The notes under the pieces were generated by a model. The model was not told the DNA's origin and searched no databases. It saw only the letters and a program-made list of their open reading frames with translations. From the NCBI RefSeq assembly GCF_905221025.1, contig NZ_CAJNBL010000005.1:1-64000 (forward strand): a stretch of 64,000 bases of DNA. Reading direction: 5' to 3'. Positions 46,359 to 57,297 of this stretch are shown here, piece after piece. This DNA is from Candidatus Nitrotoga fabula (GTDB lineage Bacteria; Pseudomonadota; Gammaproteobacteria; Burkholderiales; Gallionellaceae). A program made the translations under genes and the position numbers. Position 1 is the first letter of the stretch. The number at the start of each line of letters is the position of its first letter.

Positions 46359-46790
46359 CTACTTTCCCCCGAATGTCCGTATAAATTGAATTACATTCCA
46401 TCCATCTTCTTCCGTTATGTCGGTTCCGACCCGGATAGGCATGCCGGTACCAGGGCTTCCATTTTTCAAAACCCACATAAGCTCACCATCGGTACGAAGC
46501 TTCTGCCATTTCGCATCAGTAAAATCACGTGGAGGATGCCCGGGCAGATTGACACCTGTTCCATCCTTACTATGGCAAGTTACACAGAAACCGACACCAA
46601 AATAAACTCTCCGGCCCGCTTCAATTCGCTCCGGTGTTACAGGATGCGGGCTTTTGACTTGCTGCTCCTGTGCAAGAATTTCATTGGGTACACGTGGCTC
46701 ATACACATCCTTATGAAAAGCCCATGCGCTTTGTCCACATATAGACAAAAGAATGGCACACCCTATTGACCTAATCTTCAAAAAGAACAT
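46359..46790 (-). CDS. Secreted monoheme cytochrome c
   Basis: The 143-residue protein has a signal peptide (IGCAILLSICGQSAWA) and one heme site, CVTCH, in VYFGVGFCVTCHSKDGTGVNLPGHPPRDF. The likely axial Met lies in the later NGSPGTGMPIRV, a class I pattern. ATG at 46790 has AGGAGG six bases upstream. A strong hairpin with a U-tract lies just before that site. It probably accepts or donates electrons in the periplasm; partner unknown. Confidence 0.88.
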   Translation of the reverse strand: MFFLKIRSIGCAILLSICGQSAWAFHKDVYEPRVPNEILAQEQQVKSPHPVTPERIEAGRRVYFGVGFCVTCHSKDGTGVNLPGHPPRDFTDAKWQKLRTDGELMWVLKNGSPGTGMPIRVGTDITEEDGWNVIQFIRTFGGK

Positions 46791-46806
46791 GGAACCTCCT
46801 ATCTCA

Positions 46807-46857
46807 CCAAAAACAAAAGACACAGTGCTTATCCTTGATTTAAGGACAAACACCGTG
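46807..46857 (-). terminator. Strong hairpin-U-tract between DUF1264 gene and cytochrome
   Basis: Arms at 46842-46857 and 46821-46836 form 16 consecutive pairs (several G-U) with a 5-base loop, followed on the minus strand by TCTTTTGTTTTT. This is a textbook terminator. It sits only 17 bases before the cytochrome start codon, so it may also act as an attenuator. Confidence 0.8.
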
Positions 46858-46929
46858 CCTCTTTCTACACAATCCAAAGCATCTTAAATGTCAGGAGCCA
46901 CCCCGCTTATTAATTCCAGGCCGGTTGCA

Positions 46930-47466
46930 TTACTTTCTGGTATTGTCCTTGCTAATTTTTCCATGCAACTCTTCCCAATGGCCCACGGATTGAGGGATTC
47001 CGACCGAACCATCCGGAATGGGCGCATCTTTAGGCCAAAGATGGAAAATAATTCCATCCGTATCCGCAACATAATCCGCCAATCCTTTCACTTCCTTGGG
47101 GTCAGTCGGGTTCACGATGGCAACGCGGCCAGTTTCGATCTCCTGCTTGTGGTCATGCCAATTCTGAACATGAGACCATTTTGGAATGGCCGATCTGGCA
47201 AGTTTTTTGGAAACCATATATTCAATTTCAGTCAGACGGGCATTGGGATCCGTCGACTCAAACAAAATGCATTGAATCACATCGTCATTAATTGGCTTGC
47301 AATAATGATGAAACGGGCCAATCACCTCCCCATCCATAACATGTGGCGCCACAACATGGATGGTATAACCACTCAGAGGGTTTTTATCTGCTGCAAATAC
47401 AGGTGCAGACAGGAACCCAGCAGCGATCAGAACAGAAACAAGAAAACCAGTTTTGCTAACTTTCAT
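46930..47466 (-). CDS. Secreted DUF1264 protein
   Basis: The 178-residue protein has a signal peptide (VSKTGFLVSVLIAAGFLSAPVFA). A domain of the DUF1264 type follows, with HVMDGEVIGPFHHYCKPINDDVIQCILFES, ARLTEIEYMVSKKLARS and WHDHKQEIETGRVAIV. DUF1264 is also found in plant oil-body-associated proteins; its biochemical role is unknown. The Cys and His pairs (HHYCK, QCILF, WHDH) could bind metal, but that is a guess. ATG at 47466 has AAGGAG upstream. It ends at a strong hairpin. Confidence 0.78.
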   Translation of the reverse strand: MKVSKTGFLVSVLIAAGFLSAPVFAADKNPLSGYTIHVVAPHVMDGEVIGPFHHYCKPINDDVIQCILFESTDPNARLTEIEYMVSKKLARSAIPKWSHVQNWHDHKQEIETGRVAIVNPTDPKEVKGLADYVADTDGIIFHLWPKDAPIPDGSVGIPQSVGHWEELHGKISKDNTRK

Positions 47467-47939
47467 AATTAAATCTCCTTGTGAATTTATTATTAAGTTT
47501 GGATGATTTCTATACAATTATTGCCCATTTACCGGTTAATTGGCAGATTTCTATCCATTTTCGCTAAGAATGGGGTGCACTCCCTCCCGATCTGCATGGA
47601 ACAACCTGTTTTAATGGGCTTTCAAGGCCAACTCTATATTTAATAATCATTCAGGTTATTAAATTCCTATACAACTGGAAGCTTCACTCTACTCCAGCGT
47701 TTACTTCCAGTCAACGCAAAAACCATGCATATCTTTTTTGATATTTTCTTGTACCATAAAATTCTGACATGAAACATGGCCAGACATAATGCCGGTATGC
47801 CATAAACTCCCGCTCCAGCTAGCTCATCTGAAAATTATCCTGCATTTTGATGTACCCAAATACAAGAGGAGGCACCCGCCGCCTCCAGAATTCCCTTTCA
47901 TTCTGGCTGCCATCGCGATTTCAGGCAGCCGGATGAAAT
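47467..47939. other. Gap between nirK and the DUF1264 gene
   Basis: The AT-rich 473-base gap has no supported gene. It holds the hairpins after nirK (right end) and a direct repeat GATTTCTAT at 47505-47513 and 47546-47554 close to the DUF1264 start, possibly part of its control region. Confidence 0.45.
47861..47930 (-). terminator. Nested hairpins after nirK
   Basis: Just after the nirK stop three inverted repeats follow: GGCTGCC/GGCAGCC (47905-47911, 47924-47930), CCAGAA/TTCTGG (47885-47890, 47901-47906) and GGAGGC/GCCTCC (47868-47873, 47881-47886). On the minus strand the last is followed by TCTTGTATTT. The first two overlap and are mutually exclusive. Confidence 0.55.
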
Positions 47940-48884
47940 TTATCGGATCAGAATCTGGTCACCATGACCTTTTTTGGGATCTGCATCAGGCTTGTTCATC
48001 AACACCGTGATTGCGCCGCGCAACGCTGCTCCCATGGCATGATCCACAATTGCGAAATTGGTAGGACGGTCTGCCGGAGAAACGATATCAAAAGTACTTC
48101 CTTCCGATACAGCCACATTATAGGTTTGTATACCATACAGCGTATTTTTCGGATTACCGTTGATATAAACGCGATCCCAGATTCCTGCAATTGGATGTAG
48201 AGCAACCGGGTTGTTGATATTCGCATTTACAAAGAAGATACGAACCCTTTCACCCGGTTTGGATTCCAGCACCTGAGTTGCATTAGGCTCATGAACCGGG
48301 TCGTAATGGAACATCTTCCCATTGATCATCGCACCTTTCCAGCCGGAATTCTCAAGCAAGGCATTGAGATTCTCCGTATCGGGGAAATATTGTTGCTGTA
48401 TCAACACATATTCACGGTCTGCTTTGGGGTAATTCTTTTTATCCTTTGGTTCAACAATAATCACCCCGTACATTCCCTTGACAATATGCTGAACCATTGG
48501 GCCTGCACCACAGTGATACATGAACACGCCAGGAACCTTGGCTTCAAACTTGAATGTCTTGGTTTGTCCAGGCTTGACTTCAGCAAATTCATTCAACACA
48601 TCGACCTGGGCTGCATGAAAATCCATGGCATGCGAATTTTTATTTTCAGGTGGATTGACCAGCGTAAAATCGACTGTATCGCCCTCCTCCACCCGAACAG
48701 GTTTTCCCGGGATAGAGCCATCGAATGTCCAGGCTGCCATTTTTACATCACCCTTGTTATTCACCGGCAAATCAACCTCCATCGCCGTCATTGTGACCTT
48801 GACGGTTTTTGCAAGGACCTGCTGCGCCGAAAACACCCCGGCTATCATCATAGCCACAATGGTTACACTCTTAAGCTTACTCAT
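47940..48884 (-). CDS. nirK: Copper-containing nitrite reductase NirK
   Basis: The 314-residue periplasmic enzyme reduces nitrite to nitric oxide. After a signal peptide (VAMMIAGVFSAQQVLA), two cupredoxin domains carry the copper ligands. Type 1 ligands are His85, Cys125, His133 and Met138; type 2 ligands are His90, His124 and His282. Asp88 and His230 match the catalytic pair. The type 1 loop is YHCGAGPMVQHIVKGM, Cys-x7-His, one residue shorter than the Achromobacter-type loop. It is the fourth gene of an ncgABC-nirK type operon. Its start has AGGGGG upstream. Confidence 0.93.
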   Translation of the reverse strand: MSKLKSVTIVAMMIAGVFSAQQVLAKTVKVTMTAMEVDLPVNNKGDVKMAAWTFDGSIPGKPVRVEEGDTVDFTLVNPPENKNSHAMDFHAAQVDVLNEFAEVKPGQTKTFKFEAKVPGVFMYHCGAGPMVQHIVKGMYGVIIVEPKDKKNYPKADREYVLIQQQYFPDTENLNALLENSGWKGAMINGKMFHYDPVHEPNATQVLESKPGERVRIFFVNANINNPVALHPIAGIWDRVYINGNPKNTLYGIQTYNVAVSEGSTFDIVSPADRPTNFAIVDHAMGAALRGAITVLMNKPDADPKKGHGDQILIR

Positions 48885-48963: not shown

Positions 48964-49314
48964 CTAACTCATCTTGCATTTACACATCATGCGCAAGTAC
49001 TGCACCAGATCCTCAATTTCCTCATCGCTCAAGGTTGCCCCCCAGGGAGGCATCAAAACTGATTTACTAATGGATGCCCCCCCTTCCTTAATTGCCTTGA
49101 AAAGCGTTTCGTCCGAACGGCCTGACATGGATTTCGCATCCGTGTGATCACGAGGAACCACCGACATATCCCTGACATTTATTCCCTTTCCGTTCCCCTC
49201 TATCCCATGACACTGGGTGCAATATGCCTTATAGTTGTCTTCAGCCGTTTCCTTGGCGTGAACCGAAACCGAGAACACTGCAAATAAAGCCAACCAGAAT
49301 AATTTAGTTACCAT
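48964..49314 (-). CDS. Monoheme cytochrome c (NcgC-like)
   Basis: The 116-residue protein has a signal peptide (LFWLALFAVFSVSVHA), one heme site YCTQCHGIEGNGKG, and a likely axial Met in SVLMPPWGATLSDEEI. ATG at 49314 has AAGGAGG upstream and overlaps the preceding gene by 11 bases. In the nirK cluster it most resembles the small cytochrome of ncgABC and may feed electrons to NirK; the ncgB/ncgC assignment is by position. Confidence 0.85.
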   Translation of the reverse strand: MVTKLFWLALFAVFSVSVHAKETAEDNYKAYCTQCHGIEGNGKGINVRDMSVVPRDHTDAKSMSGRSDETLFKAIKEGGASISKSVLMPPWGATLSDEEIEDLVQYLRMMCKCKMS

Positions 49315-49984
49315 TTGTCCCCTCCTTGCTGAGTGTTTCAAGGTAATGAACCATTTTTTGTATATTCCCATCTGACAACTGCTTGTTCGGCATCATTGAT
49401 TTACGATCCCATGCCTGGGGGGACCTGATAAAGCTCGCCATGTACTCCGGTTGCAGGCGCTTGGCAGCCGTATAGAGCTCCGGCCCCGAAAAACCACCAT
49501 ACTCTGGCTCGATCAGGTGACATGCCATACAGCCCAGGAATTTATTGAAAGCCATTTCCCCCATCTGCCTGGGTACCGATCCTGGCTCGATCTTCTCTTT
49601 AGCAATCAGGTCATTATGTGGCTTTAACTTCATGAGTTCAGCCGCCACGGACGTTGCATCCGCCTTGGACAGGACAACATGGCTGATAAGCGTAGATGGA
49701 TCAATTTCATCCCCCTTGCTCCCAGTCTTGACATGCCCGCCATAAAACATCCCAGCCGGCCGAATTCGAGCAGGCTTTTGCAGCCAGGAAACCAACCATT
49801 CCTGTCGGTATTTATTACCCGCATAAAAGAGATCCGGTCCCTTTTTTGCAAAGGCGTCCTTCAACGTCTGGGCTGCCGGCCCTGTAATGTTATGACAGGC
49901 GGCACAACTGCCCTGCAGCATCCCCCCTTCCGCCAAGGCTGTTCCAGAAAAAGCAAGCAAAACAACCATAACCATACGCATCAT
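49304..49984 (-). CDS. Diheme cytochrome c (NcgB-like)
   Basis: The 226-residue exported protein has a signal peptide (VMVVLLAFSGTALA). Two heme sites are seen, CAACH (Cys27, Cys30, His31) and CMACH (Cys152, Cys155, His156). Candidate axial Met residues lie in PAGMFYG and SMMPN, typical of a diheme cytochrome c. AAGGAG precedes the ATG. It starts two bases after the multicopper oxidase stop, so the operon is tight. Confidence 0.87.
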   Translation of the reverse strand: MMRMVMVVLLAFSGTALAEGGMLQGSCAACHNITGPAAQTLKDAFAKKGPDLFYAGNKYRQEWLVSWLQKPARIRPAGMFYGGHVKTGSKGDEIDPSTLISHVVLSKADATSVAAELMKLKPHNDLIAKEKIEPGSVPRQMGEMAFNKFLGCMACHLIEPEYGGFSGPELYTAAKRLQPEYMASFIRSPQAWDRKSMMPNKQLSDGNIQKMVHYLETLSKEGTNGN

Positions 49985-49986
49985 AT

Positions 49987-51075
49987 CTATCTCCTTCGTT
50001 TCCCCTGTTCTACAATTTTTCCCATGAAGGGTGCACTGTTAAAAATCCCGTATCCTTGCTTAAGCGAAACGCTATAGAAAAAGTTAGGGTCATACACTTT
50101 GTTTTTCCATGGATAGCTTTCATTCATTTTGACACCATCATATTCAAAGACCGTCATTGGCCCCCCCATCGAAGCACCATTGTTGGACATGTGCTTGTCC
50201 ACATGATCATGCATAATGAAAAGCCCCGGATTATTCATCCTGACGATTACGTCATAGCGCTCCCCTGGTCCAAGCGGAACCGTATCCACGTAATAGGGGC
50301 TGGCCAATGGATAACCATCTTTATGCGTAACCAGCATATCGTGGCCGTGCATATGCATCTGATGTGTCTCATCCCCTGCACCAATAAACCGCATTCTCAG
50401 GACATCTCCCTTCTTGACCCTGATCGGCTGCGTAAACGGGAAAGATTTTGCATTTACCGAGAAAAAATCCGAAACATCCTGTGGGCTTCCGCCCTTGCCA
50501 TACACTCCGCCATATGGAGACTGCCACGTACTCATCATCAGGACAGCATCCACGGTAACCTCTTTCTCCAGCGCGCTCGGATTTTTAGGGTCAACGATCA
50601 ATGGTCCCCACATTCCGCGTAACGCCACATGCTCCCAAACATCCACATGACAGTGATACCAAAGAGTTCCCGGGCGATCCATATTGAACTTGTATGTATA
50701 GGATTCTCCGGGCTGAATCGCCTCCTGCGTAATTCCTGGCACTCCATCATGCTGCCAGCTGCCAACCTGGTTAACGCCATGCCAATGAATGGTATGAGGA
50801 AGAGTGGTATTGTTGGTTACATGAACCATCACATCATCCCCTTCCTTAACATGAATGAGAGGCCCAGGCACCTGTCCATTAAACGCAAATACTTTATTGG
50901 TGAAGCCCGGAGCCACCTCAATCACCACCTCCTCAATGCTCAGACTGAATTCACGCTGCTCAGCCCAGCTTGCGGTGGAAAATACCGTAAGAAATCCAAG
51001 AAAAAAGACCAGACTGATGTAGCCTTTCAAAGCAGATACCATCGTTTTATTCAGATAAATTGCCATCTTCTTCAC
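49987..51075 (-). CDS. ncgA: Two-domain multicopper oxidase (NcgA-like)
   Basis: The 362-residue exported protein (signal segment GYISLVFFLGFLTVFSTASWA) has two cupredoxin domains. Domain 1 has HTIHWH (His94, His97, His99) and YHCHVDVWEHVALRGM (His141, Cys142, His143, His149, Met155), so it holds a type 1 copper. Domain 2 has HQMHMHGH and MHDHVDKH, where Asp290 replaces the Cys, so it lacks type 1 copper. This is the type C two-domain pattern. The first codon is GTG (51075) or ATG (51066). It heads the nirK operon. Confidence 0.87.
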   Translation of the reverse strand: MKKMAIYLNKTMVSALKGYISLVFFLGFLTVFSTASWAEQREFSLSIEEVVIEVAPGFTNKVFAFNGQVPGPLIHVKEGDDVMVHVTNNTTLPHTIHWHGVNQVGSWQHDGVPGITQEAIQPGESYTYKFNMDRPGTLWYHCHVDVWEHVALRGMWGPLIVDPKNPSALEKEVTVDAVLMMSTWQSPYGGVYGKGGSPQDVSDFFSVNAKSFPFTQPIRVKKGDVLRMRFIGAGDETHQMHMHGHDMLVTHKDGYPLASPYYVDTVPLGPGERYDVIVRMNNPGLFIMHDHVDKHMSNNGASMGGPMTVFEYDGVKMNESYPWKNKVYDPNFFYSVSLKQGYGIFNSAPFMGKIVEQGKRRR

Positions 51076-51084
51076 CCAGATTTA

Positions 51085-51109
51085 AAAGATTCATTACTAA
51101 TGTATCTTT
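51085..51109 (-). promoter_or_regulatory. NsrR-like operator before ncgA-nirK
   Basis: The arms AAGATTCATT (51086-51095) and AATGTATCTT (51099-51108) are separated by three bases and are complementary except one position; an A/T pair extends them. The 23-bp symmetry and AAGAT...ATCTT ends fit NsrR sites. It covers the -10 box of the promoter below. N. europaea nirK is known to be repressed by NsrR, so the match is meaningful, though nsrR itself is not in the window. Confidence 0.65.
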
Positions 51110-51128
51110 AAGACCGACAGGTTGTCAA
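51099..51128 (-). promoter_or_regulatory. Promoter of the ncgABC-nirK operon
   Basis: On the minus strand a perfect TTGACA (51128-51123) is followed after 18 bases by TACATT (51104-51099). The start point would fall near 51092, giving a leader of about 17 bases to the GTG at 51075. Confidence 0.6.
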
Positions 51129-51302
51129 GAACTTTTTTATAAAACTGAATATATGGTTATCCGCCGGCAAGAAAAAAGGCAGGGGTTACTCAAACACCGG
51201 AACCCTGGCGGTCATGGATAATCACAACAAGAAAAGGAACGTGAAGAAACTGCGATAACATCTATTCTGCATCCAGTTTGCACAAACCGGGCAGAACAAA
51301 CC

Positions 51303-51333
51303 AAAAGTCAGGAATCCCCCTGATATCCTGACT
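51303..51333 (-). terminator. Terminator of the two-domain methyltransferase gene
   Basis: An 8-bp stem (AGTCAGGA at 51306-51313, TCCTGACT at 51326-51333) has a 12-base loop and is followed by U residues on the minus strand (TTTT at 51306-51303). It lies 60 bases after the stop and separates this gene from the nirK operon. Confidence 0.75.
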
Positions 51334-51392
51334 ACATCTCTGATCGGGCCACGCAGGAAAGCATTCAGGAAATATGCAACCAACCGGACAAG

Positions 51393-52622
51393 CTAGTTCT
51401 GACTACAGCCGACCTCCGGCTTTTTAAGGGCGATGTAGGGCTCTTCTACCGCCAGATCAAGGATGCTGTATGGCTGCAGGGCCTCATCATATTCCACTAT
51501 ATCGCTGGTCCTCACTGCCGCACGAAGTATGATGTAACCATAGCCACGCAACTCTTTTTCAAAATCCGCAAGACGAATGGGGTTCAGCTCTTTATAAAAG
51601 CGCCAGTAGTCTTCATTTGTAACATCAAAGCCCGATCGATCCATAATCGTTGGCATGGTAGTCATTACCATTTCTTTCAGCTGCGCCTCCGGAATTCGCA
51701 AATGCAGATGCGGAGTCGAATCAAACTCGCCCAGATGACTGCCATATGCCGAGTAGTACAAACCCGGAGCAACGAAAAACAGCCCTCCCGGCTTTAGCAC
51801 CCGGTATACTTCATCCAGCGCTTTTCGATATCCGCCCGCAATATGCTCAAGCGATCCCCAGGAAATCACAACATCAAAACTGGCATCCGGGTATGGGATA
51901 TCCTCACAGCTATGTTGCAGGAAAGTGAAATTGTCCGGCCGGTTATTCAACGGCAATCCATTTTCCCTGGCAATCCTGGGTAACTCATTTATATAATCCA
52001 CAATATCCATTGCGACCAGTTCTTGCGGCTGATACCGCAAAAATATGCTCAAATCGGTAATTCCCTCTCCCGCTCCAATGTCCAGAATCCTGCCGCGAAG
52101 CTTTTCCGAATTAGCGAGACAAAGTTCACCAATTACTTTTGCAGCGTGGCAAAAATGACGATGAAACCAATTTGTCATACCCTCGTTCCATGACAACTTG
52201 CTGATCCGGGATGCAGTTTCAGGACTGGGTCTCCATGTACCCACCAAAGCTTGCTGCGACTGTTCTGTCCCCTGTATGGAAAATTTTTGCACCGAATCCG
52301 GTAAGCGGACCTTGTTTACCGTCCCCCAAGCAACCCCAATTTCATAACTCCCCGGAGGAAGGGATACGGGCCATTCAAAACTGAACAAATATTCCCCCTC
52401 GGGCAGCCATGGAAGAAATATTCCACCTTGATGCGTGTCTGATCCAACCAAATGGGTATCCCCCCCTTCAGTGCGAATAAATAAACGAATTACCGGATCA
52501 AAAACACAAATATTCCTGACACGCAGATTCATCTGGATGTTTACAATCTGGCCTGGCTGGTAGCTTCCAGCAACCGGCTGAACATTGAGTACTGCAGGAT
52601 CGATATGGTTTGCCTGATTCAT
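51393..52622 (-). CDS. Methyltransferase with N-terminal beta-sandwich domain
   Basis: The 409-residue protein has an N-terminal region (about 1-120) like the C-terminal domain of Wzt O-antigen exporters (VNIQMNLRVRNICVFDPVIRLFIRTEGG; LPPGSYEIGVAWGTVN). A class I SAM methyltransferase follows at about 150-350 (GRILDIGAGEGITDLSIFL; FDVVISWGSLEHIAGGYRKALDEVYRVLKPGG). It may modify a surface glycan, but the substrate is unknown. It is monocistronic, with its own promoter and terminator. Confidence 0.75.
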   Translation of the reverse strand: MNQANHIDPAVLNVQPVAGSYQPGQIVNIQMNLRVRNICVFDPVIRLFIRTEGGDTHLVGSDTHQGGIFLPWLPEGEYLFSFEWPVSLPPGSYEIGVAWGTVNKVRLPDSVQKFSIQGTEQSQQALVGTWRPSPETASRISKLSWNEGMTNWFHRHFCHAAKVIGELCLANSEKLRGRILDIGAGEGITDLSIFLRYQPQELVAMDIVDYINELPRIARENGLPLNNRPDNFTFLQHSCEDIPYPDASFDVVISWGSLEHIAGGYRKALDEVYRVLKPGGLFFVAPGLYYSAYGSHLGEFDSTPHLHLRIPEAQLKEMVMTTMPTIMDRSGFDVTNEDYWRFYKELNPIRLADFEKELRGYGYIILRAAVRTSDIVEYDEALQPYSILDLAVEEPYIALKKPEVGCSQN

Positions 52623-52638
52623 TATTGGATACTGGATA

Positions 52639-52667
52639 GATATAATTTTTATACTGAAAATTTACAA
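52639..52667 (-). promoter_or_regulatory. Promoter of the two-domain methyltransferase
   Basis: On the minus strand TTGTAA (52667-52662) and TATATC (52644-52639) are 17 bases apart. The start point expected near 52632 leaves only about ten bases before the ATG at 52622, and no ribosome site is visible, so the mRNA may be nearly leaderless. Confidence 0.4.
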
Positions 52668-53024
52668 AAACTGGCAGGTTGCGCCATGCAAGAAACAACT
52701 CCCAAAACCCTGCATTCCCACAACGCTATAAACATGGTGGCAATAAAAATGCGTCTCGTTCCATTCATTCATGGAAAAACAACCACCTGCCTGTCGCAAC
52801 GGAAACCTGTCAAGGCCAATTATATACGCAAACTTTGCTATTCAGGAGTCGGCATACTTCAGGCACAGTTGAAGCATCGAAAGTAATACAGAATGACCAA
52901 GGCACCTACCCGATGCCGGCCACCGGTGCCAAGATGTTCGTTACAAACATAGCTTGCCCGGCCCATTGCATATTCCCCGGGTCAGCATTCCTGGAGGGAA
53001 ATTTTTTATGCAATTCATCCGGGA
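52645..53024. other. Divergent gap before the tandem glycosyltransferases
   Basis: No credible gene or repeat is seen apart from the leftward promoter. The start signals for the rightward glycosyltransferase pair were not found with confidence. Confidence 0.4.
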
Positions 53025-55052
53025 ATGCATGAAAATCTTTATTTTCCATCATGCACCGTGTTTCCCATCATGCATAAAAAATCCTCCAGGATACTCGGAA
53101 CACCCACTAGGCAGCGCCCGGCGCATCCGGATGCGCCGGGCGCGCCTGAATATTCTTCAGGATCGAAAGCATTACGTACAAAAAATTTCGACCTGGCAGC
53201 AGAATATTTTAACCGGGCGCTGCAGGCGGATCCCAAACAGCCGCACTACTGGCGTGCCTTCGCAACCGTTTCGCGGATACAGGGCAAGATCAACGAGGCA
53301 GCCCGGGGTTTCTGCAAAGCCCTTGAGCTCGACCCTGGTTTTTCGCACGCATGGAATGATCTCGGCAATCTGTATCAATCCCAGGGGAAATTCACAGAGG
53401 CCGCAAAATGCTACCAGAAATCCATGGAGCTTGATCCTGACGGTATCGATGCCCACATTGGCCTGGGGCATACCCTGCTTGCACAGGGAAAAATGGAACA
53501 ATCCGAGCAAGCAATGCGATGGGCGGTTCGGCTTGATCCCCGCCATATACCGGCACTCCAAGGACTGGCCTATTCCCTGAAGGGGCAAGGCAGGCACACA
53601 GAAGCAAGAAAGGTTTATCTACACGCATGGCTGTTGAAACCCAATGATTTGCAAGCCTGCATCGGCGCACACCTGACCCTGCCCACAATCTATTCCAGCC
53701 TGGCGGAACTGTCCGCTTCCCGGAAGCAGTTTGCCGAGGGCCTGAAAAAATTGCATGCAAACACGGAAACATTCATCAAATCCGGGTCAAAAGAGCTCTT
53801 GTCCGGGCTGAACTGGACAAATTTTTACCTTGCCTATCAGGGCGAAGACGACAAATTCCTGCAAACGGAATATGCACGCTTTGTGGCAAAAATTGTACAT
53901 AGCGCAGCTCCAGATTTAATGCGACCCATTAGGAAAAACCCAGGCCCCCTCCGGAATCGCATACGCATCGGATTTCTTTCCAGCTTCCTGCGCAATTGCA
54001 CGGTCGGTTCCTATTTCAAAAGCTGGATCACCTCCCTGAACAGGGAAACCTTCGATATCTTTTGCTATTTCACAGGAAGCATCCGGGACCACGTAACCGA
54101 AGAGCTTGCCCGCTCCTCTGATCACGCTGCATTCCCTAGAGGCAGCGCTGAGGATATCGGCAGGCAAATCAAACAGGATCAACTGGACATCTTGATATAT
54201 CCGGAAATTGGCATGGATCCGGTTACATGCACTCTGTCCGCCATGCGCCTCGCACCTGTTCAATGTGCTGCATGGGGGCATCCGGTCACGACCGGTCATG
54301 CCCATATCGATTGTTTCTTTTCCAGCGTACTGATGGAACCTGAAAACGCGCAGGATCACTACAGCGAACGATTGATCCTGCTGAGTGGAATTGGAACCTG
54401 TTATTCCAAACCGCCCCCCCCTTCCCCGGCAAAACGGTCTGATTTTTCACTACCGGAAGAACGCATTCTCTATCTATGTCCGCAGTCGCTATACAAAATT
54501 CACCCCGATAACGATAAGCTGCTGTCCGAAATACTGGCACGCAACCAGAATGCTTCTCTTGTATTCTTTCAGGCAAACGACCTGTCCATCACCCGCGCAT
54601 TCATGAAAAGGCTGGAAACCACCCTAGACGACGCCGGGATAAAAAAAACGGGCCAGATCAAAATATTGCCGCGCATGGAACATGCAAATTACCTGCGCAT
54701 AAACCTGCTATGTGACGTCATGCTGGACACCCTGCACTGGTCCGGTGGCAACACCACGCTGGATGCGCTGGCCTGCGGCCTACCCGTGGTAACCCTCCCC
54801 GGTAAATTCATGCGCGGGCGCCAGAGTTACGGTATGCTGAAATATATGGGAATGGATGAACTGATCGCGCAGGGACCGCAGGAGTACATTGAAATTGCAA
54901 CCCGGCTTGGACTGGATCACGCCTGGCGCACGCAACTTGCGCAACGCATCGCCCAGAACAGTGACACACTCTTTTCCGATGAGTCACCCGTGCGTCAGCT
55001 CGAAGCATTCCTGACCATGCAAATGGATACGTCTTTGTGCCATGACCGATAA
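53025..55052 (+). CDS. TPR protein with divergent GT41 glycosyltransferase domain, copy 1
   Basis: The protein has up to 675 residues; the start may be 53025 or the ATG at 53070, and neither has a clear ribosome site. About five TPRs (residues 40-205) precede a GT41-like domain. Position 325 (IRIGFLSSFLRNCTVGSYF) is Cys where canonical OGT has the catalytic-base His. The donor-binding Lys is kept (LCPQSLYKIHPDND). Other motifs diverge: AAWGHPVTTGHAHIDCFFSS and DTLHWSGGNTTLDALACGLP. It overlaps the next gene by 11 bases. It may have a different acceptor or mechanism, or reduced activity. Confidence 0.8.
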   Translation: MHENLYFPSCTVFPIMHKKSSRILGTPTRQRPAHPDAPGAPEYSSGSKALRTKNFDLAAEYFNRALQADPKQPHYWRAFATVSRIQGKINEAARGFCKALELDPGFSHAWNDLGNLYQSQGKFTEAAKCYQKSMELDPDGIDAHIGLGHTLLAQGKMEQSEQAMRWAVRLDPRHIPALQGLAYSLKGQGRHTEARKVYLHAWLLKPNDLQACIGAHLTLPTIYSSLAELSASRKQFAEGLKKLHANTETFIKSGSKELLSGLNWTNFYLAYQGEDDKFLQTEYARFVAKIVHSAAPDLMRPIRKNPGPLRNRIRIGFLSSFLRNCTVGSYFKSWITSLNRETFDIFCYFTGSIRDHVTEELARSSDHAAFPRGSAEDIGRQIKQDQLDILIYPEIGMDPVTCTLSAMRLAPVQCAAWGHPVTTGHAHIDCFFSSVLMEPENAQDHYSERLILLSGIGTCYSKPPPPSPAKRSDFSLPEERILYLCPQSLYKIHPDNDKLLSEILARNQNASLVFFQANDLSITRAFMKRLETTLDDAGIKKTGQIKILPRMEHANYLRINLLCDVMLDTLHWSGGNTTLDALACGLPVVTLPGKFMRGRQSYGMLKYMGMDELIAQGPQEYIEIATRLGLDHAWRTQLAQRIAQNSDTLFSDESPVRQLEAFLTMQMDTSLCHDR

Positions 55053-57297
55053 CAGCACAGACATCCTTTCCCGGGCAGCCAGGCTACTAAGAGGCGGCCA
55101 GCTGCAACCCGCGGAAGCGATATTCCGGCAGATTCTGGCCAGCCATCCCAAAGCGCTGCCACAGGCAGCGGCAATCGCACTGCAATACCAGCGCCTGCCG
55201 CTGGCACTGCTCTGCCTTGAACAATCCATCCTCCATGAACCACAGGAAGCGCGCCATTATTTCCTGCGCGGAATCACACTGGAAGATCTGCACCGGAGAG
55301 ACGAGGCTCTCAACAGCCTGCAGCAGGCAATCCGCCTCAAACCGGATTATGCCGAAGCATACAACAATATCGGCATTATTCTGCATGACCAAAAAAATTT
55401 TGAGCAGGCCGCCGCGAATTTCCACAACGCCATTCTGCACAAACCGGATTATTCCGGGGCGCATAACAACCTGGGCTCAACACTACGCGCGCTTGGAGAT
55501 CTTGCCGGGGCACAACAGCAGTTTGCCCGGGCAGTTCAACTGAATCCTGCTTATGCCCTGGCCCATTTCAATCTGGGGAAGACATACCTGGACATGGGGC
55601 AACTGGTTCCAGCGGAAACCCATTTCCAGCAAGTGTTACGCCTGAAACCGGATCACCTTCAGGCCTGTGGCCATCTGGGCTCCATTCAGTTCCAGCTGGG
55701 GAAACTGGATGAAGCGGAAGCCAGTTTTTCCTACGCAGCCCAACGAAAACCCGGAAAAAACGGAGCGGAACTCAACAAGCTTGCCCGGGTACTCTGGGAA
55801 CAGGGCCGGATCGGCCCGACTCTGACTGCCTATCGTCAGGCGCAGGCCCTTAACCCCCACGAGCTAAAATCAGCCCTTGGAGCCCTGCTTTCACTACCCG
55901 CGGTCTACGGTAACAAGAATGAACTGCTGGCCACGCGCCAAAGGTTTGCCAAAGGGCTGGAAACCCTGCATTTTCGGGTTCCGGAGTTTGTTTCCCAAAA
56001 CCCGTCCGAAAAACTTTTGAACGAGCTGCGCTGGAGCAATTTTTACCTCGCCTACCAGGGCATGGACGACAAGCCTCTGCAAACAGACTATGCCCGCTTC
56101 GTCGCCAGAATATTGCAAATCATCGCTCCCCGCTTCATGCAGCCGCGCATCAAAAAACCACAGGCAGGCCGCCGCCTCCGCATTGGTTATTTATCCAGTT
56201 TTTTCAGAAAGTGTACGGTCGGAATGTACTTCCGCAGCTGGATCACATTGCTTGACCGCAATCAATTTGAAATCTTCATTTATTATACCCGTCCGGAAAC
56301 CGACCCGGTCACGCAGGAAATCATCGACGCCAGCGACCATTTCCGCCAGCCGGTCGCGGGTCGCATCCCGGTTGGCACCATCGCCGATACTGTTCTGGCG
56401 GACGACCTGGATATTTTGGTTTACCCGGAACTTGGCATGGACAACACCAGCTTCCTGCTGGCTGCCATGCGCCTGGCGCCACTGCAATGCGCCGGCTGGG
56501 GGCATCCTGTAACGAGCGGCCATGCAAATGTGGATTATTATTTTTCCAGCGCCGCACTGGAACCCGCGAACGCTGCTCCGCATTATTCCGAAAAACTGAT
56601 ATTACTTGACGGAATTGGCACGCATTACCGAAAGCCTCCTCTGCCCACACCGGCACGGCGTGCAGATTTTGCGCTGCCAGAAGGCAGGACACTGTATCTT
56701 TGCCCTCAATCCTTATTCAAAATCCACCCGGACAACGACCCCATCCTGGCCAGAATTCTTGAACGCGACCCGAACGGGGTACTCGTGCTGTTCGCCGGCC
56801 GCCACCCCAACATTACCCGCACCCTGCTTACCCGGCTGACGCAGGCGATGCACACACGCAGGCTCAGACCACAAGGGCGGAGCATCGTCTTGCCACCTGT
56901 GGAACACGATGACTACCTGCGCATCAACATGCTGTGCGATACCATGCTCGATACCCTGCACTGGTCCGGCGGTAACACCACGCTGGATGCGCTCGCCTGC
57001 GGCTTGCCGGTTGTCACCCTGCCGGGAGAATTCATGCGTGGACGACAAAGCTGCGGAATGCTGGAATACATGGGACTGAATGAGCTGATCGCCCGGGACG
57101 AAGAGGACTACATACGGATTGCCCTCCGGATCACCGCCGACCATGCATGGCGCAGACAGATTGTAGAACGCATCCATACGGGCAGCCAGCGGATTTTCAA
57201 CCAGGACACTCCATTGCGACAAATGGAACGGTTTTTTTATTCCGAATTCAACCGGAAGGATGATCCCCCTCCCAATTTGCGCAATTCCCTGCCCTGA
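55042..57297 (+). CDS. TPR protein with divergent GT41 glycosyltransferase domain, copy 2
   Basis: The 751-residue paralog of the preceding gene has about eight TPRs (residues 8-275; AEAYNNIGIILHDQKNFEQAA). The same divergent GT41 domain follows: Cys391 in IGYLSSFFRKCTVGMYF, CAGWGHPVTSGHANVDYYFSS, LCPQSLFKIHPDND, and DTLHWSGGNTTLDALACGLPVVTLPGEF in part. The two genes are translationally coupled and probably arose by tandem duplication, followed by change in repeat number. They may act as a hetero-oligomer. Confidence 0.82.
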   Translation: MTDNSTDILSRAARLLRGGQLQPAEAIFRQILASHPKALPQAAAIALQYQRLPLALLCLEQSILHEPQEARHYFLRGITLEDLHRRDEALNSLQQAIRLKPDYAEAYNNIGIILHDQKNFEQAAANFHNAILHKPDYSGAHNNLGSTLRALGDLAGAQQQFARAVQLNPAYALAHFNLGKTYLDMGQLVPAETHFQQVLRLKPDHLQACGHLGSIQFQLGKLDEAEASFSYAAQRKPGKNGAELNKLARVLWEQGRIGPTLTAYRQAQALNPHELKSALGALLSLPAVYGNKNELLATRQRFAKGLETLHFRVPEFVSQNPSEKLLNELRWSNFYLAYQGMDDKPLQTDYARFVARILQIIAPRFMQPRIKKPQAGRRLRIGYLSSFFRKCTVGMYFRSWITLLDRNQFEIFIYYTRPETDPVTQEIIDASDHFRQPVAGRIPVGTIADTVLADDLDILVYPELGMDNTSFLLAAMRLAPLQCAGWGHPVTSGHANVDYYFSSAALEPANAAPHYSEKLILLDGIGTHYRKPPLPTPARRADFALPEGRTLYLCPQSLFKIHPDNDPILARILERDPNGVLVLFAGRHPNITRTLLTRLTQAMHTRRLRPQGRSIVLPPVEHDDYLRINMLCDTMLDTLHWSGGNTTLDALACGLPVVTLPGEFMRGRQSCGMLEYMGLNELIARDEEDYIRIALRITADHAWRRQIVERIHTGSQRIFNQDTPLRQMERFFYSEFNRKDDPPPNLRNSLP

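Follow-up and report, generated by a model that had tools for sequence, protein, structure and literature searches.

In the 64,000-nucleotide stretch of Candidatus Nitrotoga fabula DNA analysed here (the window), an inverted repeat lies across the -10 box of the promoter in front of an ncgABC-nirK operon. This raises the question of whether a repressor acts on the operon through the repeat, which protein that would be and which signal would lift it. In our reading, to which we give a probability of roughly 0.8, the repeat is an NsrR-type operator in Candidatus Nitrotoga, from which an NsrR-like protein, NsrRa, would repress the operon until released by NO or by NO derived from nitrite. Directly visible in the DNA are a palindrome that overlaps the -10 and matches the NsrR motif, the conservation of its near half and an NsrR homologue in every genome of the genus that has the operon.

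The predicted operator occupies 51085-51109 on the minus strand, as an 11-3-11 inverted repeat with 10/11 pairs and with 18/22 of the NsrR consensus letters; in the minus-strand reading it is AAAGATACATT AGT AATGAATCTTT. Its core (51086-51108, AAGATTCATT ACT AATGTATCTT) keeps 9/10 pairs, in agreement with the first-pass annotation, which had described a 23-bp near-perfect inverted repeat with a 3-base centre. The repeat had also been placed within a promoter TTGACA-18-TACATT, over the -10, and indeed TACATT (51099-51104, minus strand) lies inside the promoter-proximal half of the palindrome, downstream of the -35 hexamer TTGACA (51123-51128, minus strand). If transcription began about 7 bases beyond TACATT, the start would lie near 51092, inside the palindrome. 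The two hexamers match the consensus at 10/12 positions. This match alone proves nothing, since a promoter scan of 49500-56000 found fewer sites than its shuffles (4 promoter-like sites versus a mean of 7.0); a weaker match (9/12) was seen at 50042-50015, before ncgB.

The genes that follow on the minus strand form an ncgABC-nirK run, which confirms that the target is a nirK operon, and it is the -10 before these genes of NO or nitrite metabolism that the operator covers. They encode an ncgA-like multicopper oxidase (49987-51066, 359 aa from ATG 51066, three multicopper-oxidase Pfam domains over cut-off), an ncgB-like c-type cytochrome (49304-49984, 226 aa), an ncgC-like c-type cytochrome (48964-49371, whose given start overlaps ncgB and whose true start is perhaps further in) and a nirK-like copper nitrite reductase (47940-48884, 314 aa). 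The names ncgA, ncgB and ncgC were assigned by homology and gene order; ncgA orthologues at 75-87% are found in 12 other genomes of the genus. The NirK model TIGR02376 gave 164.7 bits, under its curated cut-off of 296.3 bits, and the Cu-ligand motifs DFH, YHC, HIVKGM and VDH were recognised by eye. We grade co-transcription of ncgABC-nirK from 51128 as likely, because the promoter scan as a whole was poorer in matches than its shuffles. For ncgA, GTG 51075 is also open. ATG 51066 looks the likelier start, with GGGTGA, a plausible ribosome site, just upstream, whereas the GTG has none. The statement that the repeat ends 10 bases before the first gene holds only if the GTG is used; with the likelier ATG the distance is 19 nt from 51085. 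Some 420 bases separate nirK from the next genes on the minus strand (46359-47517), which encode a small c-type cytochrome and a protein of 195 aa and which may or may not be co-transcribed.

How unusual is the repeat? Palindromes of the 11-3-11 form with at least 10 pairs occurred in 11 of 2000 simulated local stretches of 401 nt, and when any centre of 0-10 was allowed, 8 of 300 simulated local stretches were positive. The 64-kb window contains three further 11-3-11 palindromes of at least equal quality. The letters were scored against an extended NsrR consensus (11-1-11, 22 informative positions), in which we added outer AA/TT and inner T/A letters to the core. The score of 18/22 compares with best scores of 14-17 in 30 simulated 64-kb windows, and none of 100 simulated local stretches reached it. 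A pattern built from the operator itself matched once in the window (0.01 expected); in the 2.3-Mb genome it had one other place within 3 mismatches and no others within 2. Symmetry alone is therefore moderately rare and weak evidence, and the letters, which are much rarer, are strong evidence. Against the core consensus gATGyAT-N5-ATrCATc, as given in the available part of PMC1274295, the operator agrees at 12/14 positions, and both departures fall on the symmetric G4/C16 positions.

Thirteen genomes of the genus carry ncgA, and since the contig of one of them (G015) ends inside the site, 12 promoters are readable. The promoter-proximal half, TAAAGATACATT, is invariant in all 12. TTGACA is equally present in 12/12, with a spacer of 18 in the window and of 17 in the other 11, and AAAGA, which is outside the -10, is as fixed as TACATT (12/12 in every column). 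In an ungapped stack, mean column agreement was 83% for the far half, 56% for the flanks and 73% for the nine spacer columns, the last figure being slightly depressed by the window's one-base-longer spacer. The far half keeps 9/10 pairs in 7 of the 12 promoters and is eroded to 7/10 pairs in the other five, which still score 17/22, a value reached by 0-1 of 100 simulations for each. Relatives in which the regulator persists have conserved the operator. The idea that the far half eroded only once was rejected, since at least two changes of this label are required on the ncgA tree. Three ncgA promoters (L005, L006 and L011) contain a second palindrome, ATCTTTAATTAAAGAT, which lies in the -35/-10 spacer and overlaps the operator; it is absent from the ncgA promoter of the window.

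Outside the genus, two sets of 13 and 8 loci yielded 20 distinct ncgA loci, L108 being a repeat of L056, with a readable upstream neighbour in 18 of them (all except L058 and L109). An nsrR-like gene is divergent from ncgA in 7 of these 18 loci (L044, L045, L049, L055, L111, L112 and L113), bearing out the remark that nsrR adjoins the operon in some relatives; at the genus loci read, no divergent nsrR was seen beside ncgA. When the upstream regions of 19 loci (all except L058) were scored, 14 reached at least 17, with a top score of 20/22 in L044 and L047; the others were L050 and L109 (16), L051 and L053 (15) and L056 (14). In 200 simulated sets of the 19 regions, a mean of 0.04 and at most one reached 17. 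Two amoA-bearing genomes, G081 and G125, served as stand-ins for Nitrosomonas europaea in the comparison. Their loci (L111 and L112) have a divergent nsrR together with sites of 19/22, and L111 carries a half, GATACATT, that is the same as in Nitrotoga. Judged by eye, the site is just past the apparent -10 in these two genomes, whereas it is on the -10 in Nitrotoga. The identification of the repeat as an NsrR-type operator, proposed from the window alone, is thus well supported by comparison, both through its 18/22 consensus match and through related clusters with NsrR-type sites and a divergent nsrR.

Which protein could bind the operator? The worry that the genome might hold no NsrR was not borne out, as three Rrf2 matches were found at the search threshold in the window's genome (G000): IscR (L001) and two NsrR-like proteins, NsrRa and NsrRb, which are 53% identical over 135 residues. 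The observation that nsrR is not adjacent to the operon also stands. NsrRa is encoded elsewhere (G000:C28), adjoining flavoprotein-like and thioredoxin-like genes, and NsrRb (G000:C30) is divergent from hmp (L003 1391-1491). NsrRa passes the Rrf2 domain PF02082 (128.4 bits, cut-off 30). Each of its three cluster-binding cysteines has its counterpart in an alignment with S. coelicolor NsrR 5n07, and its best solved-structure matches are S. coelicolor NsrR. The NCBIfam NsrR equivalog cut-off of 182 bits is missed by NsrRa (138.3) and by NsrRb (142.1), hence the term NsrR-like for both paralogues. All 7 ncgA-adjacent regulators outside the genus miss it as well, including those of the two amoA-bearing genomes (134.5 and 135.4), which indicates that this cut-off does not discriminate here.

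Orthologues of NsrRa (78-100% identity) were found in 14 of 19 genomes of the genus, namely all 13 with ncgA and G009 (85% complete). NsrRa is accordingly found in 13/13 genomes with ncgA and in 1/6 without it (Fisher p 0.0005, ancestry ignored). The five genomes with neither gene are G002, G007, G010, G011 and G018 (completeness 72, 71, 91, 83 and 97%, respectively; three of the five are below 90%). A 53% relative in G002 was left out of the count. The joint absence may reflect shared ancestry, and reduced Nitrotoga genomes lacking nirK have been published, according to the accessible part of PMC9239080. A search for NsrRb in the 19 genomes returned only G000, the other strong matches being NsrRa places (46-52%) and a 44% protein in G002; NsrRb is hence known only from G000. 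When the two paralogues are compared, NsrRa gives the higher score for six of the 7 ncgA-adjacent regulators outside the genus. From these scores, the co-occurrence with ncgA and the restriction of NsrRb to one genome, we infer that NsrRa is the likelier partner of the operator. In an NsrR tree, the placement of NsrRa came out without a resolved branch, and NsrRb was closest to the regulator of L044. Autoregulation of nsrRa was considered and discarded, as no site above 14/22 lay near the start in 11 of 14 NsrRa loci (11 scored).

A more sceptical account would make the conserved half a mere promoter element and the window's symmetry a remnant or chance, with no repressor involved. TACATT does account for some of the conservation, 5/12 promoters have an eroded far half, and symmetry alone is not very rare. 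This account leaves unexplained why AAAGA before TACATT is invariant while the rest of the spacer varies; we know of no sigma-70 element of this kind. Neither does it fit the 9/10 pairs kept in 7/12 promoters, nor the NsrR-type site of the amoA-bearing genomes, which sits just downstream of the apparent -10 (by eye), so that promoter function fails to explain the letters. We regard it as quite unlikely. If the operator is real, it might still be served by NsrRb, or both paralogues might compete for it. NsrRb scores slightly better with the NsrR model (142.1 versus 138.3), it adjoins a flavohaemoglobin gene, a usual place for an NsrR, and its closest tree relative adjoins an ncgA. The operator, however, is in all 12 readable promoters and NsrRb in only one of 19 genomes, the majority of ncgA-adjacent regulators lean towards NsrRa, and even the hmp promoter beside NsrRb holds only a 15/22 match, which makes control by NsrRb, alone or in competition with NsrRa, rather unlikely.

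A related doubt concerns what NsrRa would sense. For this protein the RirA model gives 134.5 bits against 138.3 for the NsrR model, a near tie, and for the regulators of L045 and L049 RirA even comes out slightly above NsrR. NsrRa could on these scores be a RirA-type sensor of iron or Fe-S status, and the operon would then follow iron and not NO or nitrite. The same near tie is nevertheless seen in the ncgA-adjacent regulators of the amoA-bearing genomes, the setting of the nitrite-sensitive NsrR of N. europaea; moreover, the DNA site is of the NsrR type and the closest solved structures are those of S. coelicolor NsrR. An iron-responsive operon thus appears very unlikely, and repression by NsrRa acting as an NsrR is the reading that we retain.

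Other targets were looked for with two patterns. The general consensus at 3 mismatches matched only ncgA promoters, in 4/19 genomes; the window's own genome was not among them, the operator being 4 mismatches away and so missed. A genus-type pattern at up to 3 mismatches found 17 distinct places in the 19 genomes, the 12 ncgA promoters and 5 others (L091, L097, L100, L102 and G014:C36), versus one place for a reversed control pattern. Having been derived from these very sites, this pattern is informative only through its specificity. The open frames around L091, L097, L100 and L102 gave no recognisable nitrogen-oxide gene, and a wider regulon was not retained on this basis. At L091 (1501-1523, in G004), a copy of the site with 2 mismatches precedes, by about 170 bases, a gene resembling a cyclic-nucleotide-binding protein. 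No other strong site was seen in the window's genome. A full hmp is present in 7 of the 19 genomes, all 7 with ncgA, and a fragment in G009. It was rejected as a second target, the best site among 8 hmp loci being 15/22 in G000 and 12-14/22 elsewhere; at the 7 remaining Nitrotoga hmp loci that were read, hmp has no nsrR neighbour and the matches to the NsrR site are only weak.

In the mechanism that we favour, a cluster-loaded NsrRa dimer would bind the operator and block access of RNA polymerase to the -10. Damage to the Fe-S cluster by NO, or by NO derived from nitrite, would release NsrRa from the DNA and allow transcription of the operon. Where the far half is eroded, binding would occur mainly via the near half-site. 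NsrR is reported to use half-sites in E. coli and B. subtilis, whereas the S. coelicolor protein did not bind them (PMC4432287, in its available part).

The metabolism of the host bears on the likely signal. The window's genome encodes a 1169-aa protein that can be aligned, over residues 8-1168, with nitrite oxidoreductase subunit A (7b04; E 1.6e-229), and no match to AMO was found in the same genome. Since the NXR alpha subunit is present and AMO absent, Candidatus Nitrotoga is, judged by its genes, a nitrite oxidizer, a point missing from the first-pass annotation; an origin from Nitrosomonas was considered and set aside. Nitrite, as its energy source, would normally be present; sensing of nitrite only would then make a poor switch, and NO would be the likelier cue. 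We also prefer NO because NsrR senses it directly, as reported in the accessible part of PMC2577008. Against this preference counts the statement, in the portion of PMC6967387 at hand, that nirK of N. europaea responds to nitrite, with neither NO nor O2 acting as its signal. The available parts of the literature further describe NsrR repression of this nirK (PMC1274295, PMC6967387) and nitrite tolerance conferred by nirK and ncgABC (PMC6967387, PMC5080386).

A NirK induced by NO is a puzzle, because no NO reductase was seen and NO production without a sink would run away. Each of the 13 genomes with ncgA has three matches to PF00115, which we take to cover NO reductase large subunits as well: one open frame of about 474-485 aa and two of about 165-330 aa. 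In the window's genome, the long protein resembles cbb3 subunit I, below cut-off, and a CcoO-like gene comes next. On the same contig, two short proteins (G000:C5:171711-172058, L146, and G000:C5:188416-188643; frames of 178 and 202 aa) give partial matches to heme-copper oxidase subunit I, and that of L146 resembles part of CcoN. No NorB-like protein was seen among the PF00115 matches of the 13 genomes, in a search run without a NorB positive control, and 6/13 have no full Hmp. That no NO reductase was seen, and no full Hmp in those six, suggests a bolder reading, in which NcgABC-NirK itself would remove NO. The Nitrotoga NsrR circuit would then be a one-operon loop, induced by NO, in which NcgABC-NirK oxidizes NO to nitrite for NXR; we consider this unlikely. 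To our knowledge, an NO oxidase has been proposed, though not identified, in ammonia oxidizers. Nitrobacter winogradskyi, which likewise has this cluster and lacks nor, does not settle the matter, because it is reported to both produce and consume NOx (PMC5080386, in the part available). If this reading were true, NcgABC-NirK would be an NO oxidase of that kind, switched on by its substrate and feeding the cell's energy substrate back to NXR.

Control of ncgABC-nirK by NsrR in Nitrosomonas europaea was reportedly established by Beaumont in 2004 and 2005 and is treated by Rodionov in 2005 (PMC1274295), and our results would extend the nirK repressor circuit published for this species to a nitrite oxidizer. 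Literature searches for Nitrotoga with NsrR or nirK, and for NsrR with nitrite-oxidizing bacteria, in a coverage that leaves out most subscription papers, gave no report of the operator. The half-site erosion, the unlinked regulator and the host are new details of a known NsrR-nirK kind. The operon, the repressor family and the NsrR-type site are the same as in N. europaea, and one of its amoA-bearing stand-ins shares the GATACATT half. Unlike N. europaea, which is an ammonia oxidizer, Nitrotoga is by its gene content a nitrite oxidizer with an unlinked regulator; nirK and nsrR are operonic in N. europaea, an arrangement common to N. eutropha (PMC4940428, accessible part). In the amoA-bearing G081 and G125 the site is just past the -10 (by eye), whereas the Nitrotoga operator is on it and has lost pairs in its far half in some members of the genus. 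Neisseria likewise has an NsrR-regulated nirK-type gene, aniA, and its consensus is also changed at G4/C16 (PMC1274295, same part as above), but norB is co-regulated there, whereas no NO reductase was seen in Nitrotoga. Nitrobacter winogradskyi is closer in its metabolism, being a nitrite oxidizer with the same ncgABC-nirK cluster and no known NO reductase; its cluster differs in that it rose with quorum sensing, and no NsrR operator is described for it in the available part of PMC5080386. Through the proposed operator it would become possible to test whether, in nitrite oxidizers, ncgABC-nirK produces NO or removes it, a question that the same part of that paper leaves open for Nitrobacter.
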